Source of the DNA: Blastococcus saxobsidens
GTDB lineage: Bacteria > Actinomycetota > Actinomycetes > Mycobacteriales > Geodermatophilaceae
NCBI RefSeq assembly: GCF_010682065.1
Contig: NZ_JAAGWG010000022.1
Span: forward strand, 1 to 64,000
Length of the DNA: 64,000 nucleotides
Direction: 5' to 3'
Shown here: piece after piece, positions 58,688 to 62,617 of the stretch
Position numbering within the stretch: position 1 is the stretch's first letter
How the letters are laid out: each line of letters starts with the position of its first letter
Made by a program: the position numbers and the translations under genes
Notes under the pieces: model-generated
The model's database searches: none
What the model was told of the DNA's origin: nothing
What the model saw: the letters and a program-made list of their open reading frames with translations, nothing else

Positions 58688-60076
58688 TCAGCTCCCCAGG
58701 ACCGCTGCCTGTGCGCGCACCGCCCGCACCACGTCCTCGACGGCGGCGACGCTGAAGGCGGAGGCGGAGGCGTCGAGCAGCAGGGACGAGTGAGTCGCCG
58801 GTACGAGCCGGTGGCTGCTGGTGGGGGAGAGCTCCGCCAGGGCGTCCTGGGCGGCGGACCACCCGGCCTGGCGGTCACCTGCGGTGGCGGTGACGACGAC
58901 GAGCGGCGTGCTGCCGATGCCGGGCAGTGCCTGGGCCTGCTCGAAGACCGCGGGGTAGGCAGCCACCTCGTCCCGCTCGGCACGCAGCTGGCGGGTGCTC
59001 CAGTCGAAGGCGCGCATCTGTGCCCGCGCCGCGGCCGGCAGGTCGGCCGGGGCGCCGGAGGTCAGCAGCGGACCGGCGCCCAGTCGCTGCAGGGTGGGCA
59101 GCAGTGCGGTGGCCCTCCGCGCGAGCGAGTACGCACCGGGGTAGTCGGGCAGTGCCGTGAACTGGTGCGGGGTCGAGGAGTCCAGCAGGACCAGACCGGC
59201 GACGTCGTCGGGGTACTGCGCGGCGTAGACCATCGCGTACGTGCCGCCCACGGAGTGCCCGGCGAGCACGAAGGGACCGCGCTCGCCCGCCCGGTTCAGC
59301 AGATCATGCAGGTCGGTCGCCACCTGGACGCCGTCCTTCGGCCCCGGAGCGCTGTCGCTCCAGGCCTGGCCGGCCCGGTCGTAGGCGCACACCCGCGTCG
59401 TCCCGGCGACGGCGGGCTGGACCAGGCCCCAGGCGGCGGAGGTCTCGCCCATCCCACCGAGCAGCACCACGGTCGGGCCGCCGCTGCCGGTGCAGGCCAG
59501 GTGCAGCCGGCGGTCCCCGACGTCGACCAGCTCCCCGGGCATCGAGGGGCTTCCGCCCAGCGCTGTCCGCACGGTCGTCGCGGCGCCGCCGACCGAGGCG
59601 AGCACGAGCAGCACCAGGACGGGGGAGAGCAGCCAGAAGGGGAGCCGGAGGCCGAACGACCGCACCGCACGGTGGATGGTCCAGCCCGCGAGCCCCAGGA
59701 GGAGGGGCGGCCAGAGCCAGCCGGCGGCGGTCAGCGGGCCGTCGCCGGGTGCGAGCACGAGCAGGGCCGTCCCGACAGCGCCCAGCGCTGCCGCCGGTAC
59801 CGCGGCCCAGCGCTGCGGCCGGCCGGTCAGCGTCGTCGAGCCGAGCGCGAGCGCGGCCCAGCCCAGCGCGAGGCCGAGCAGCCCGGTGCCGGTGAGGACG
59901 TGCTCGGGAGCGCCGCCGAAAACACCGACGGTGGCGACTCCGGCAGCGAGCGGCCCGAGGACGGCCGATCCGGCCACCACCCAGGTCAGGCGCCGTGCCG
60001 ATGCCCGGCGGCTGCCGTCCCGGGCGCTCCGGCGCGCAGGCCGGCCCGTCGTCGTGGCGGCGGCTGTGGTGGACAC
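58688..60076 (-). CDS. membrane-anchored alpha/beta hydrolase
   Basis: 462 aa from GTG 60076. Residues 30-175 contain about five membrane helices. An alpha/beta-hydrolase domain follows with TVVLLGGMGETSAAWGLVQ (oxyanion), the nucleophile Ser in LAGHSVGGTYAMVYA, VLLDSSTPHQ (acid) and the His of ATHSSLLLD. Substrate unknown; ester or haloperoxidase-like chemistry is possible at the membrane. CATCGT plus 6 nt precedes the GTG. A 37-bp element shared with the gene at 61579 lies at -32 to -68, which points to common control by the divergent GlxA-type regulator. Confidence 0.87.
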   Translation of the reverse strand: MSTTAAATTTGRPARRSARDGSRRASARRLTWVVAGSAVLGPLAAGVATVGVFGGAPEHVLTGTGLLGLALGWAALALGSTTLTGRPQRWAAVPAAALGAVGTALLVLAPGDGPLTAAGWLWPPLLLGLAGWTIHRAVRSFGLRLPFWLLSPVLVLLVLASVGGAATTVRTALGGSPSMPGELVDVGDRRLHLACTGSGGPTVVLLGGMGETSAAWGLVQPAVAGTTRVCAYDRAGQAWSDSAPGPKDGVQVATDLHDLLNRAGERGPFVLAGHSVGGTYAMVYAAQYPDDVAGLVLLDSSTPHQFTALPDYPGAYSLARRATALLPTLQRLGAGPLLTSGAPADLPAAARAQMRAFDWSTRQLRAERDEVAAYPAVFEQAQALPGIGSTPLVVVTATAGDRQAGWSAAQDALAELSPTSSHRLVPATHSSLLLDASASAFSVAAVEDVVRAVRAQAAVLGS

Positions 60077-60107
60077 GCGACGACGATGTCCGAGGTTCCG
60101 CGACGGC

Positions 60108-60144
60108 GCCAGGACGCAGCGTTGACGATTCCGGACATGCCTCC
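60108..60144. promoter_or_regulatory. conserved 37-bp element, copy 1 (GlxA operator candidate)
   Basis: GCCAGGACGC, GTTGACGAT and GCCT blocks are shared with copy 2 at 61611-61647 (30 of 37 positions identical). It is 31 nt upstream of the hydrolase GTG (60076). It also spans -52 to -16 relative to the predicted start of the GlxA-type gene at 60160, so one bound regulator could activate leftward transcription and repress its own promoter. Confidence 0.65.
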
Positions 60145-60159
60145 CCGTACGGTGGCGGG

Positions 60160-61128
60160 GTGGCTGCCCTCGACGTCGCGGTGGTGACGTTCCCCTCGGC
60201 CCAGATCCTGGACGTGACCGGTCCGCTGGAGGTCTTCTCCAGCGCCGACCACCTGCTGCCGACGGTGGAGTACCGCACGCAGGTGGTGAGCCCGTCGGGT
60301 GGGATGGTGCAGGCCAGCTCGGGGCTGTCGTTCGGGACCACCGCGCTGGCCGACGTCGTGGAGCCGGTCGACACGCTCGTGGTGGCCGGCGGCCGGGACA
60401 TGGACGAGGCGTGCGCGGACGAGGAGCTGCTGGCCCACGTCCGGCGACTGGCGGGCAGCGCCCGGCGGGTCACCTCGGTCTGCTCCGGGGCCTTCGTCCT
60501 GGCCGCCGCCGGGCTGCTGGACGGTCGTCGGGCCACCACCCACTGGGCGGAGTGCCAGCTGCTGGCGAGCGCGCACCCGCAGGTGTCGGTCGACGGTGAT
60601 GCGATCTACGTGCGCGACGGCGACGTGTGGACCTCCGCCGGCGTGACGGCGGGCATCGACCTGGCGCTGGCCCTCGTCGCCGACGACCACGGCGCGCGGG
60701 CAGCGGCGGCGGTCGCCCGGCACCTGGTGGTCTACCTGCGGCGGTCCGGTGGGCAGGCGCAGTTCTCCACGCTGCTCGCCGCGCAGGCAGCGGAGAGCGA
60801 ACCGGTGCGGGAGCTGCTGGCGTGGCTGCCCGACCACCTGGCCGAGGACCTGTCCGTGCCGGCCCTGGCCCGCCGTGTGCACCTGTCGGAGCGGCAGTTC
60901 AGCCGGGTGTTCAAGGCCGAGGTCGGACTGACGCCGAGCGAGCACGTGGAGGGGCTGCGGCTCGAGGCGGCCTGCCGGCTGCTGGAGACCACCGGTCACG
61001 CCGTCGACCACATCGCCCGGACCTGCGGGTTCCGGGTGCCGGAGACGATGAACCGCACGTTCCGGCGGCGGTTGGACACCACCCCGGGGGAGCACCGCCG
61101 GCACTTCGGCCAGTTCGCCGGCCGGTAG
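60160..61128 (+). CDS. GlxA-family regulator (DJ-1/PfpI domain plus AraC HTH)
   Basis: 322 aa from GTG 60160. The N-domain is a DJ-1/PfpI-like fold (LDVAVVTFPSAQILDVTGPLEVF in parts) with VTSVCSGAFVLAAAGLLDGRRATTHW, where the nucleophile-elbow Cys is in VCSG. The C-terminal AraC-type double HTH shows VPALARRVHLSERQFSRVFK and RTCGFRVPETMNRTFRR. GlxA proteins sense small metabolites through the N-domain. TACGGT (60148-60153) plus 6 nt precedes the GTG, giving a leaderless mRNA. The nearby 37-bp elements are its likely binding sites. Confidence 0.92.
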   Translation: MAALDVAVVTFPSAQILDVTGPLEVFSSADHLLPTVEYRTQVVSPSGGMVQASSGLSFGTTALADVVEPVDTLVVAGGRDMDEACADEELLAHVRRLAGSARRVTSVCSGAFVLAAAGLLDGRRATTHWAECQLLASAHPQVSVDGDAIYVRDGDVWTSAGVTAGIDLALALVADDHGARAAAAVARHLVVYLRRSGGQAQFSTLLAAQAAESEPVRELLAWLPDHLAEDLSVPALARRVHLSERQFSRVFKAEVGLTPSEHVEGLRLEAACRLLETTGHAVDHIARTCGFRVPETMNRTFRRRLDTTPGEHRRHFGQFAGR

Positions 61129-61138
61129 CCGTCCGCTG

Positions 61139-61579
61139 TCACCACCCCACCCGCAGATCTGCGAGGACGACGACGGCAAGGAGCGCGGCAGCGACGAAGT
61201 CGACGGTGGCGCAGAACGGGGGCCACCACCGGGTGTTCGCCACGAACCCCGTCCGGTGCTGCCAGAGGTCCTTGAGACCGTGCCCGGCCAGGCCCGCGAC
61301 GAGCAGCCATCCCGACCCGGTCACCGCCACCGCTGCGACGCCCACGAACGCCGCGGCGACACCGGTCTCGACGGCGAGGACCTCGGTCCGCCCGTCGGCG
61401 ACCCCGAACCCGATGTAGACGGCGGCGATGAGCACGAGACCCATGCCGTGGACCGTCGATGGCTGCAGCCAGGGGAAGGCCAGCGGCGAGGCGGCCTGCA
61501 GGATGCCCCCGAGAACTCCCCACGCCACCGGCGTCCTCAGAGCCGTTGGTCGCGTCCTCGTGCGGAGAGTCGTGGGCAC
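61139..61579 (-). CDS. four-helix membrane protein, 146 aa
   Basis: GTG 61579. Four hydrophobic segments: VAWGVLGGILQAASPLAF, GLVLIAAVYIGFGVADG, VLAVETGVAAAFVGVAAVAV and TVDFVAAALLAVVVLADL. The conserved-looking loop GHGLKDLWQHRTGFVANTRWWPPFC sits before the last helix. No functional family is recognised. CAGGCT plus 6 nt before the GTG suggests a leaderless mRNA. Copy 2 of the 37-bp element lies 31 nt upstream of the GTG, exactly as copy 1 lies upstream of the hydrolase, implying co-regulation. Confidence 0.75.
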   Translation of the reverse strand: MPTTLRTRTRPTALRTPVAWGVLGGILQAASPLAFPWLQPSTVHGMGLVLIAAVYIGFGVADGRTEVLAVETGVAAAFVGVAAVAVTGSGWLLVAGLAGHGLKDLWQHRTGFVANTRWWPPFCATVDFVAAALLAVVVLADLRVGW

Positions 61580-61610
61580 GGACCGAGCCTGGGTCAGCAG
61601 CAGCCACGGT

Positions 61611-61647
61611 GCCAGGACGCCGGGTTGACGATCTCGGCCACGCCTGC
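61611..61647. promoter_or_regulatory. conserved 37-bp element, copy 2
   Basis: GCCAGGACGC-N3-GTTGACGAT-N2-CGG then CA and GCCT, aligned without gaps with copy 1 at 60108. It covers -32 to -68 relative to the predicted leaderless start of the gene at 61579, a typical activator position just upstream of the -35. Confidence 0.65.
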
Positions 61648-61671: not shown

Positions 61672-62433
61672 TCAGCTGAAGGTCACGCCGCCGTCCACGA
61701 TGATCGTCTGCCCGGTGATGAACCCGCTGCCTGCGGAGCAGAGGAACGACACCACCGGCGCCAGGTCACCGGGCTCCATCGGGCGTGGGACGGCGCGGTG
61801 TCCGGCGGCCGTCGCCAGATAGTCCTCGTCGTTGAGGGATCGGGTGGCGTCGGTCTCGACGAGCCCGGGCGCGACCGCGTTCACCGTGATGCCGTCCCGA
61901 CCGACCTCGCGCGCGACGCTGCGGGTCAGCGCGATCACCGCGCCCTTGGACGCGGTGTAGTGGGCGAAGTAGGGCACGCCGCTGTGCACGGTGGACGAGG
62001 CGATGTTGACCACGCGGCCTCCGCCCTGGGCCTTCATCGCCGGGTGGACGGCGCGCATGCCCAGCCAGACGCCACGGGTGTTCACCGCCATGACCCGGTC
62101 CCACTCGTCGACCGTGATCTCGGTGAACGGCCGCTTGGCGCCGAGGCCCTGGTAGATGGCCGCGTTGTTGACCAGCGCGTCGATGCGGCCGTGCCGGTCG
62201 AGGACCGTCGTCACCAGCTGCTGCCACGACGTCTCGTCGCTCACGTCGGCCTGCACGTGGGTGATGTCCAGGTCGCCTGGATCGCCGTCGGCCTCGACGA
62301 GGTCGGCCGCGACCACGGCCGCTCCCTGGGCGGCCAGGTGCCGGCTCAGCTCGGCGCCGATGCCGCGCGCGCCGCCGGTCACCAGGACGACCGTGCCGGG
62401 CGCGACGCTGCCGCGCATGTCGGTCGGCTTCAC
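61672..62433 (-). CDS. short-chain dehydrogenase/reductase
   Basis: 253 aa from GTG 62433 (GGGAG five nt upstream); ATG 62418 is a shorter option. Classical SDR: cofactor loop VLVTGGARGIGAELS, VNNAAIYQG, and the catalytic Ser/Tyr/Lys in NIASSTVHSGVPYFAHYTASK. The end is GFITGQTIIVDGGVTFS. The D in VAADLVEAD favours NAD(H). It resembles 3-oxoacyl-ACP/glucose dehydrogenase-type SDRs; the substrate is unknown. Downstream, the region to 61647 contains the second 37-bp element belonging to the next gene. Confidence 0.9.
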   Translation of the reverse strand: MKPTDMRGSVAPGTVVLVTGGARGIGAELSRHLAAQGAAVVAADLVEADGDPGDLDITHVQADVSDETSWQQLVTTVLDRHGRIDALVNNAAIYQGLGAKRPFTEITVDEWDRVMAVNTRGVWLGMRAVHPAMKAQGGGRVVNIASSTVHSGVPYFAHYTASKGAVIALTRSVAREVGRDGITVNAVAPGLVETDATRSLNDEDYLATAAGHRAVPRPMEPGDLAPVVSFLCSAGSGFITGQTIIVDGGVTFS

Positions 62434-62617
62434 ACGCACTCCCGGAGTGGTCGGTCGCTGGACGCGCGGATCGGTGCGGCCCGCGCGAGGGACTTCATAG
62501 CGCACCGGTGTTCCGGGGGCATCCGGGCAGGAACGGCCGGCGACGCGGTGCGACCCCGTGGAGGGCCTGCCGGCCCGACGGCGCAGCGAGCGCTTCCGCC
62601 ATGCCGGGAAGGGGTTG

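Follow-up and report, generated by a model that had tools for sequence, protein, structure and literature searches.

A candidate class II operator of a GlxA-type regulator in Blastococcus saxobsidens and its probable takeover by a small membrane protein gene

Introduction

The activators AraC, at araBAD, and RhaS, at rhaBAD, bind tandem half-sites of which the near one lies against the −35, and with AraC the regulator's own divergent gene is covered by nearby sites. Other members of the wider family carry a DJ-1/PfpI-type sensor in front of the AraC-type helix-turn-helix (HTH). For one of them, CdhR, the published description reports direct-repeat GGTCGC half-sites with a 15-bp spacer and a regulator gene divergent from its target, and calls the sites very similar to those of GbdR, SouR and ArgR (PMC5806209). 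Here we analyze a 64,000-nt stretch of Blastococcus saxobsidens (positions 1 to 64,000 of contig NZ_JAAGWG010000022.1, assembly GCF_010682065.1), referred to below as the window, in which a 37-bp element occurs twice around the gene for a GlxA-type regulator of this domain type (glxA): copy 1 lies ahead of an alpha/beta hydrolase gene and copy 2 ahead of mem, a gene for a small membrane protein. The element very likely serves the product of glxA as a class II operator of the AraC type, from which the regulator would drive the hydrolase gene and mem and probably restrain glxA. The sequences themselves contain the site, its link to the glxA orthogroup, its fixed orientation and −10 spacing, its repeat period, and remnants of a duplication in a relative.

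Results

The sequence-only reading of the window had described two elements, at 60108-60144 and 61611-61647, that align without gaps with 30 of 37 positions identical and stand at the same distance from two GTG start codons. All of this holds, and the distance is exactly 31 nt to the minus-strand GTGs at 60076 and 61579. Copy 1 (minus strand, conserved core at 60108-60137) reads TGTCCGGAATCGTCAACGCTGCGTCCTGGC in the direction of its target, with half-sites at 60137-60133 and 60116-60112, and copy 2 (minus strand, core at 61611-61640) is placed relative to the mem promoter as copy 1 is to the hydrolase promoter. The −10-like hexamers on the same strand, CATCGT (60088-60083) for the hydrolase and CAGGCT (61591-61586) for mem, each lie 19 nt from the operator and, as had been claimed, 6 nt ahead of the GTG. 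The next-best 37-mer on either strand of the window matches copy 1 at 24 of 37 positions and copy 2 at 25, and the two 120-nt upstream regions, aligned without gaps, reach 30 matching positions at best, whereas 60 Markov resamples reach no more than 23; a chance repeat was rejected on this basis.

The element is linked to glxA in other genomes as well. A related-locus search returned 73 loci, 18 of which have a long, close glxA match (L040-L055, L106 and L107; 68-91% identity in the best segment) and were examined. In raw upstream sequence the element lies directly ahead of glxA in 17 of these 18, the exception being L106, and its AGGAC and TTGACGA blocks are unchanged in all 17, codon third positions included. 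Genomes were then searched with the pattern AGGACN6TTGACGATNNCGGNCA, every fixed letter of which is common to both window copies. Only the two window sites have at most one mismatch in the own genome (4.09 Mb searched, ~91% complete), and in 15 relatives, drawn from the genomes of the 18 loci, every one of the 19 sites with 0-1 mismatch is at the glxA locus, their coordinates having been matched to the loci by hand. Of 23 genomes of the genus, four contain the site, and the same four have a glxA orthologue at a cut-off (E ≤ 1e-100) chosen after the gap in the match list was seen; three of the four appear identical to L042, L044 and L045, and the genus and relative tests overlap to that extent. 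In a class sample of 394 genomes, 19 hold a site with at most one mismatch, and 0-mismatch sites occur only in the own genome. A single one-mismatch site out of 18 (G226) immediately precedes a glxA homologue; no glxA match at E ≤ 1e-80 lies near the remaining 17, which are probably chance matches. Scattering over the genome with no link to glxA homologues, which the sequence-only reading had named as grounds for refutation, is not what is seen in the own genome and the 15 relatives: 0-1-mismatch sites are confined there to glxA loci, and a mobile or scattered repeat was rejected.

Conservation of the element could also reflect protein coding, since the glxA frame is open through copy 1 (ORF 59995-61128) and the element might encode an N-terminal extension. 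We regard this as extremely improbable, together with the idea of a chance or mobile repeat: unchanged codon third positions and six copies that no intact glxA start follows speak against coding conservation, and a repeat would have to be reconciled with just two near-exact sites in the own genome.

Two of the examined loci have interrupted glxA matches. In Blastococcus haudaquaticus (L106, 4881-6640), the glxA-side site and most of the hydrolase are lost and the match to glxA is split into three segments, of which the central one has a different frame; mem keeps a one-mismatch site. In Arthrobacter sp. H5 (L107, 5001-5905), glxA matches in two pieces in different frames, reflecting a broken gene or a sequencing error.

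The internal structure of the site and its promoter geometry were derived from 24 sites collected from the window and the 18 loci; 18 of them adjoin glxA and six are extra. Within the core, the first eight bases best match the stretch 21 bp further on (mean 4.88 of 8, offsets 8-44), with 26 as the next-best offset (mean 4.21 of 8), giving direct-repeat half-sites TGKCC...YGTCC at 21-bp spacing with a central CGTCAA. A YANNNT hexamer begins 19 nt past the 30-bp core toward the target in 22 of the 24 sites and 20 nt past it in the remaining two; the other 43 offsets between 5 and 49 give three matches in total over the 24 sites. Ten sites (window, L040-L045 and L106) are followed by a GTG, 31 nt away in eight cases and 32 nt away in two, the latter being those with the 20-nt step, and the GTG is 6 nt past the hexamer throughout. 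This spacing fits leaderless transcripts, and the hydrolase transcript probably begins at its GTG; the metagenome-assembled genome (MAG) of Modestobacter (L046) and most sites of other genera have no start codon at that position. Given the fixed spacing of hexamer and GTG, the target-side edge of the site would be at about −32, and the copy 1 core would span ~ −32 to −61 of the hydrolase promoter, assuming that the transcript begins at the GTG. There is no evident −35 consensus on the target side. The features of a class II AraC-activated promoter, namely a site that abuts or overlaps the −35 at a fixed distance from the −10, are found, by sequence only, in 24 of 24 sites. Less exact matches away from the locus were considered as further regulon members and rejected: a −10-like box at offset 19 is found in 0 of 19 off-locus sites (8 of the 14 in the own genome with 2-3 mismatches and 11 of the 12 in relatives with 2 mismatches).

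On the side facing glxA, TACNGT stands 6 nt ahead of a GTG or ATG in 8 of 8 loci (window and L040-L046); in the window it is TACGGT at 60148-60153 on the plus strand, 6 nt ahead of the glxA GTG. Relative to this hexamer, the −35 and spacer of the glxA promoter would fall under copy 1, in agreement with the overlap that the sequence-only reading had noted. In the mechanism we propose, a dimer of the regulator would bind the 21-bp-spaced direct repeat with its central CGTCAA. The presumed leaderless promoters have a −10 and lack an evident −35 consensus; the near edge of the bound repeat would fall at about −32, from where the regulator would bring in RNA polymerase to transcribe the hydrolase gene and mem by class II activation. 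Binding at copy 1 would at the same time cover the −35 and spacer of the leaderless glxA promoter, so that glxA would probably be restrained. GlxA binding, activation, self-restraint and leaderless starts, together with an inducer and a physiological role, are what we infer here, and the mechanism is of an already known kind. The sequence-only reading, in which the regulator would activate both genes and limit itself, is in this sense supported.

The same geometry bears on the possibility that the site acts mainly in repression, with hydrolase, mem and glxA blocked until an inducer releases them. The overlap of copy 1 with the glxA promoter would suit such a role, as would the model proposed for CdhR, in which the regulator's own gene is inhibited without carnitine, although the abstract of the same paper states that CdhR enhances its own expression (PMC5806209). 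On the target side, however, the site ends at ~ −32, a constant 19-20 nt from the −10 and with no evident −35 consensus, as expected for activation, and we consider a mainly repressing role unlikely.

The genes placed under the site vary, and its orientation toward them is constant. The six extra sites precede mem (window, L040, L106 and L051) or a hydrolase (L047 and L051). In L041, L043 and L044, mem lies directly behind the hydrolase, with one site for both; L045 has mem first, followed by a hydrolase that is 51% identical, and L042 has the hydrolase without a mem match. The 11 loci L046-L055 and L107 differ in the gene that comes first on the divergent side: it encodes a DJ-1/PfpI protein in six (L046, L048, L051, L052, L053 and L055), another alpha/beta hydrolase in two (L049 and L054), and a beta-lactamase-family protein in one (L047), and is not assignable in two (L050, cut by its contig, and L107).

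Individual loci illustrate this variety. Three 0-mismatch operator copies lie within 5 kb in a Naasia MAG (L051; 4930, 5993 and 9627), ahead of a DJ-1/PfpI gene, mem and a hydrolase. In Microbacterium sp. SS28 (L047, 3102-4694), the beta-lactamase-family gene is divergent from glxA, behind the same operator. The DJ-1/PfpI protein of L052 (3613-5013) has N- and C-terminal hydrophobic segments by eye and is apparently an exported, membrane-anchored DJ-1-like domain.

The origin of copy 2 can be traced in relatives. In L040, copy 2 is flanked by a 126-nt piece 75% identical to the glxA promoter and start (best match L044) and by a 158-nt piece 73% identical to the 5′ part of the hydrolase gene (L044), and the stop codon of this hydrolase remnant overlaps the mem ATG. 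In L106, the frame from the copy 2 GTG crosses a hydrolase remnant (140 nt, 71% identical to L044) directly into mem, and the window has the same start and junction with a shorter piece between. These remnants suggest that copy 2 is probably the remainder of a duplicated, divergent glxA/hydrolase locus from which glxA and the hydrolase body have disappeared, and that mem probably took over the promoter and operator of the lost hydrolase copy and, it would appear, its leaderless start codon. The identical GTG distance of the two copies would then arise because copy 2 and the mem start derive from the duplicated locus. A FastTree analysis of 90-nt upstream pieces was too weak to date the duplication. 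This origin by duplication and decay is absent from the sequence-only reading.

The decayed glxA-start and hydrolase pieces around copy 2 in L040 are also what would be expected if copy 2 were a neutral fossil of a duplicated promoter region, with mem no longer regulated and only copy 1 at work. Yet the core, the −10 spacing and the GTG register are kept in three genomes (window, L040 and L106) while the flanks decay, with one pattern mismatch in the copy 2 core of L106 and none in the window or L040. In addition, mem is in frame from the copy 2 GTG in L106 and its frame begins at that GTG in the window, and the Naasia locus likewise has a site ahead of mem. We therefore think it improbable that copy 2 has lost its function.

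More distant relatives carry a diverged form of the site. In 18 of 19 further loci, where glxA is 50-56% identical, a diverged site faces glxA and scores above all 200 shuffles; the scan model for these loci was trained on close and distant sites, and the 19 are the non-own matches given as loci in the class search, each the best-scoring of its genome or near it. That the site faces glxA itself in distant relatives is likewise a point missing from the earlier reading. A second DJ-1-domain match lies behind glxA, on the same strand, in 24 of 50 distant loci (one checked with Pfam). As a control, 25 of 26 non-orthologous loci with other DJ-1/AraC genes (L006-L031) were scanned, L016 being left out at a contig edge; a flag required a score above 12 that also exceeded the best of 50 shuffles by 2. 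Two of the 25 were flagged (L008, 48% identity, and L010, 44%), with 0 of 20 in L011-L031; L007 is site-like by eye yet below its shuffles, and L011 and L017 are above their own shuffles at scores below 12.

The element might instead be bound by a different regulator or serve as a promoter for an alternative sigma factor, in which case its link to glxA would be one of neighbourhood only. CGTC within its core resembles some −10 boxes of extracytoplasmic function (ECF) sigma factors, but the site co-occurs with the glxA orthogroup over several genera, the sites diverge along with the regulator, and a −10-like box lies outside the element at a fixed distance, all of which make this explanation very unlikely.

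Several observations weigh against an operator of GlxA with the properties proposed here. The window hexamers CATCGT and CAGGCT are weak as −10 elements, and YANNNT occurs at 18-20 nt in only 9 of the 18 diverged sites. Column conservation across the 24 sites is partly circular, since the pattern used for the collection fixes CGTCAA and most of the half-sites; the conservation of AGGAC and TTGACGA in raw upstream sequences is independent of that pattern. An earlier scan of 50 distant loci (L056-L105) with a narrower model gave a score above 10 in 22 and not in the other 28; six of the 22 had served as input to the model itself, and for two of the 22 another place in the locus scores at least as well. 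L106 lacks the glxA-side site, its glxA matching in pieces of differing frame, and no site was found in L108, a 3055-base contig with a close 94-residue glxA match. Finally, mem was matched in only 3 of 40 genomes searched, the own genome included, and the target genes turn over among the 11 loci L046-L055 and L107.

The encoded proteins were examined by domain and structure searches. The hydrolase (Abhydrolase_1; 58688-60076, minus strand, GTG start) has an N-terminal hydrophobic part by eye. The regulator (60160-61128, plus strand) has the N-terminal DJ-1/PfpI domain and C-terminal AraC-type HTH (HTH_18) that define the DJ-1/PfpI-AraC (GATR-type) class, and its Pfam domains score 90.2, 80.2 and 52.6 bits, each above cut-off. 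The best solved match of its sensor domain (window 60160-60720) is the isonitrile hydratase InhA (6.6e-32), with the stretches VTSVCSG/VTSVCTG and RATTHWA common to both. The mem gene (61139-61579, minus strand, GTG start at 61579) encodes a protein with the conserved motif HGxKDxWQ.R...NTRWWPxFC that no Pfam or NCBIfam model matched. The sequence-only reading took it for a four-helix membrane protein; five helices are predicted instead, though only one of five AlphaFold models is confident (pLDDT 83, the others 49-57). Because four of the five models have low pLDDT and a Foldseek search of the mem model against the PDB gave no match at E ≤ 0.001, we claim no fold for mem.

Matches to the SDR gene to the right of copy 2 (window 61672-62505) are only 29-35% identical and lie elsewhere in some related loci; a rearrangement border is therefore probably near copy 2. 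Paralogues of the regulator in the genus (L021, L023, L025 and L029; 37-39% identical DJ-1/AraC proteins) share another motif upstream of the regulator gene and near its start codon. Judged by eye it reads TGGCAG...TTTTCTGCCA, and it is possibly the operator of another DJ-1/AraC branch.

Discussion

For one branch of DJ-1/AraC regulators, the analysis predicts where the regulator binds, which genes it controls and how their promoters are built. It also places mem, an uncharacterised membrane protein family, in a defined regulon and makes visible stages by which a gene can capture a ready-made, regulated and probably leaderless promoter. Literature searches, which covered titles and the starts of abstracts, gave no description of this operator or module, and no described site, regulon or mem-capture route for this branch of regulators. 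On balance, though with some reserve, we favour a wider reading in which one type of operator, with a near-fixed step to the −10, is common to an entire branch of actinobacterial DJ-1/AraC regulators. The site would face glxA in distant members, often with a DJ-1-like gene behind glxA, and would be turned round in the window's clade, where the genes it drives would be mem, neighbouring hydrolases and a DJ-1/PfpI protein that is apparently anchored in the membrane. Duplication and deletion would move operator and leaderless start as a unit, with new genes captured along with promoter, start codon and regulator at once.

The regulator can be compared with named relatives at several levels. Its best named full-length match is FtrA (NF006902), at 251.7 bits, below the equivalog cut-off of 425, and it is not filed as FtrA; the GbdR equivalog (NF052371) was rejected as well, at 144.8 bits where at least 480 are required. 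Among solved DNA-binding domains, that of AdpA of Streptomyces comes closest (3w6v, 2.5e-19), with RTFDR in the recognition helix of AdpA aligned to RQFSR in the window regulator. The AdpA consensus TGGCSNGWWY (PMC9952706) matches the first half-site (positions 1-10) in 9 of the 24 sites and fails in 15, both window copies included, and an AdpA binding site was rejected on this basis. AdpA is pleiotropic and has a short, loose consensus, whereas the site described here is long and its 0-1-mismatch matches are confined to their own locus in the own genome and relatives.

The GATR subfamily, represented by CdhR, GbdR, SouR and ArgR of Pseudomonas aeruginosa, likewise combines a GATase-1-like (DJ-1/PfpI-type) sensor with an AraC HTH. 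Its targets are in amine catabolism and its half-site sequence differs, whereas here the targets are hydrolases and mem and the promoters are actinobacterial and probably leaderless. CdhR is called class I (PMC5806209), in contrast to the site here, which abuts the −35 (class II). By our own arithmetic from its published half-site and spacer, CdhR has a repeat period of 21 bp, the same as that of this site. With araBAD and rhaBAD, the sites share the tandem, −35-adjacent geometry, in combination with a sensor domain and targets unrelated to those of AraC and RhaS.

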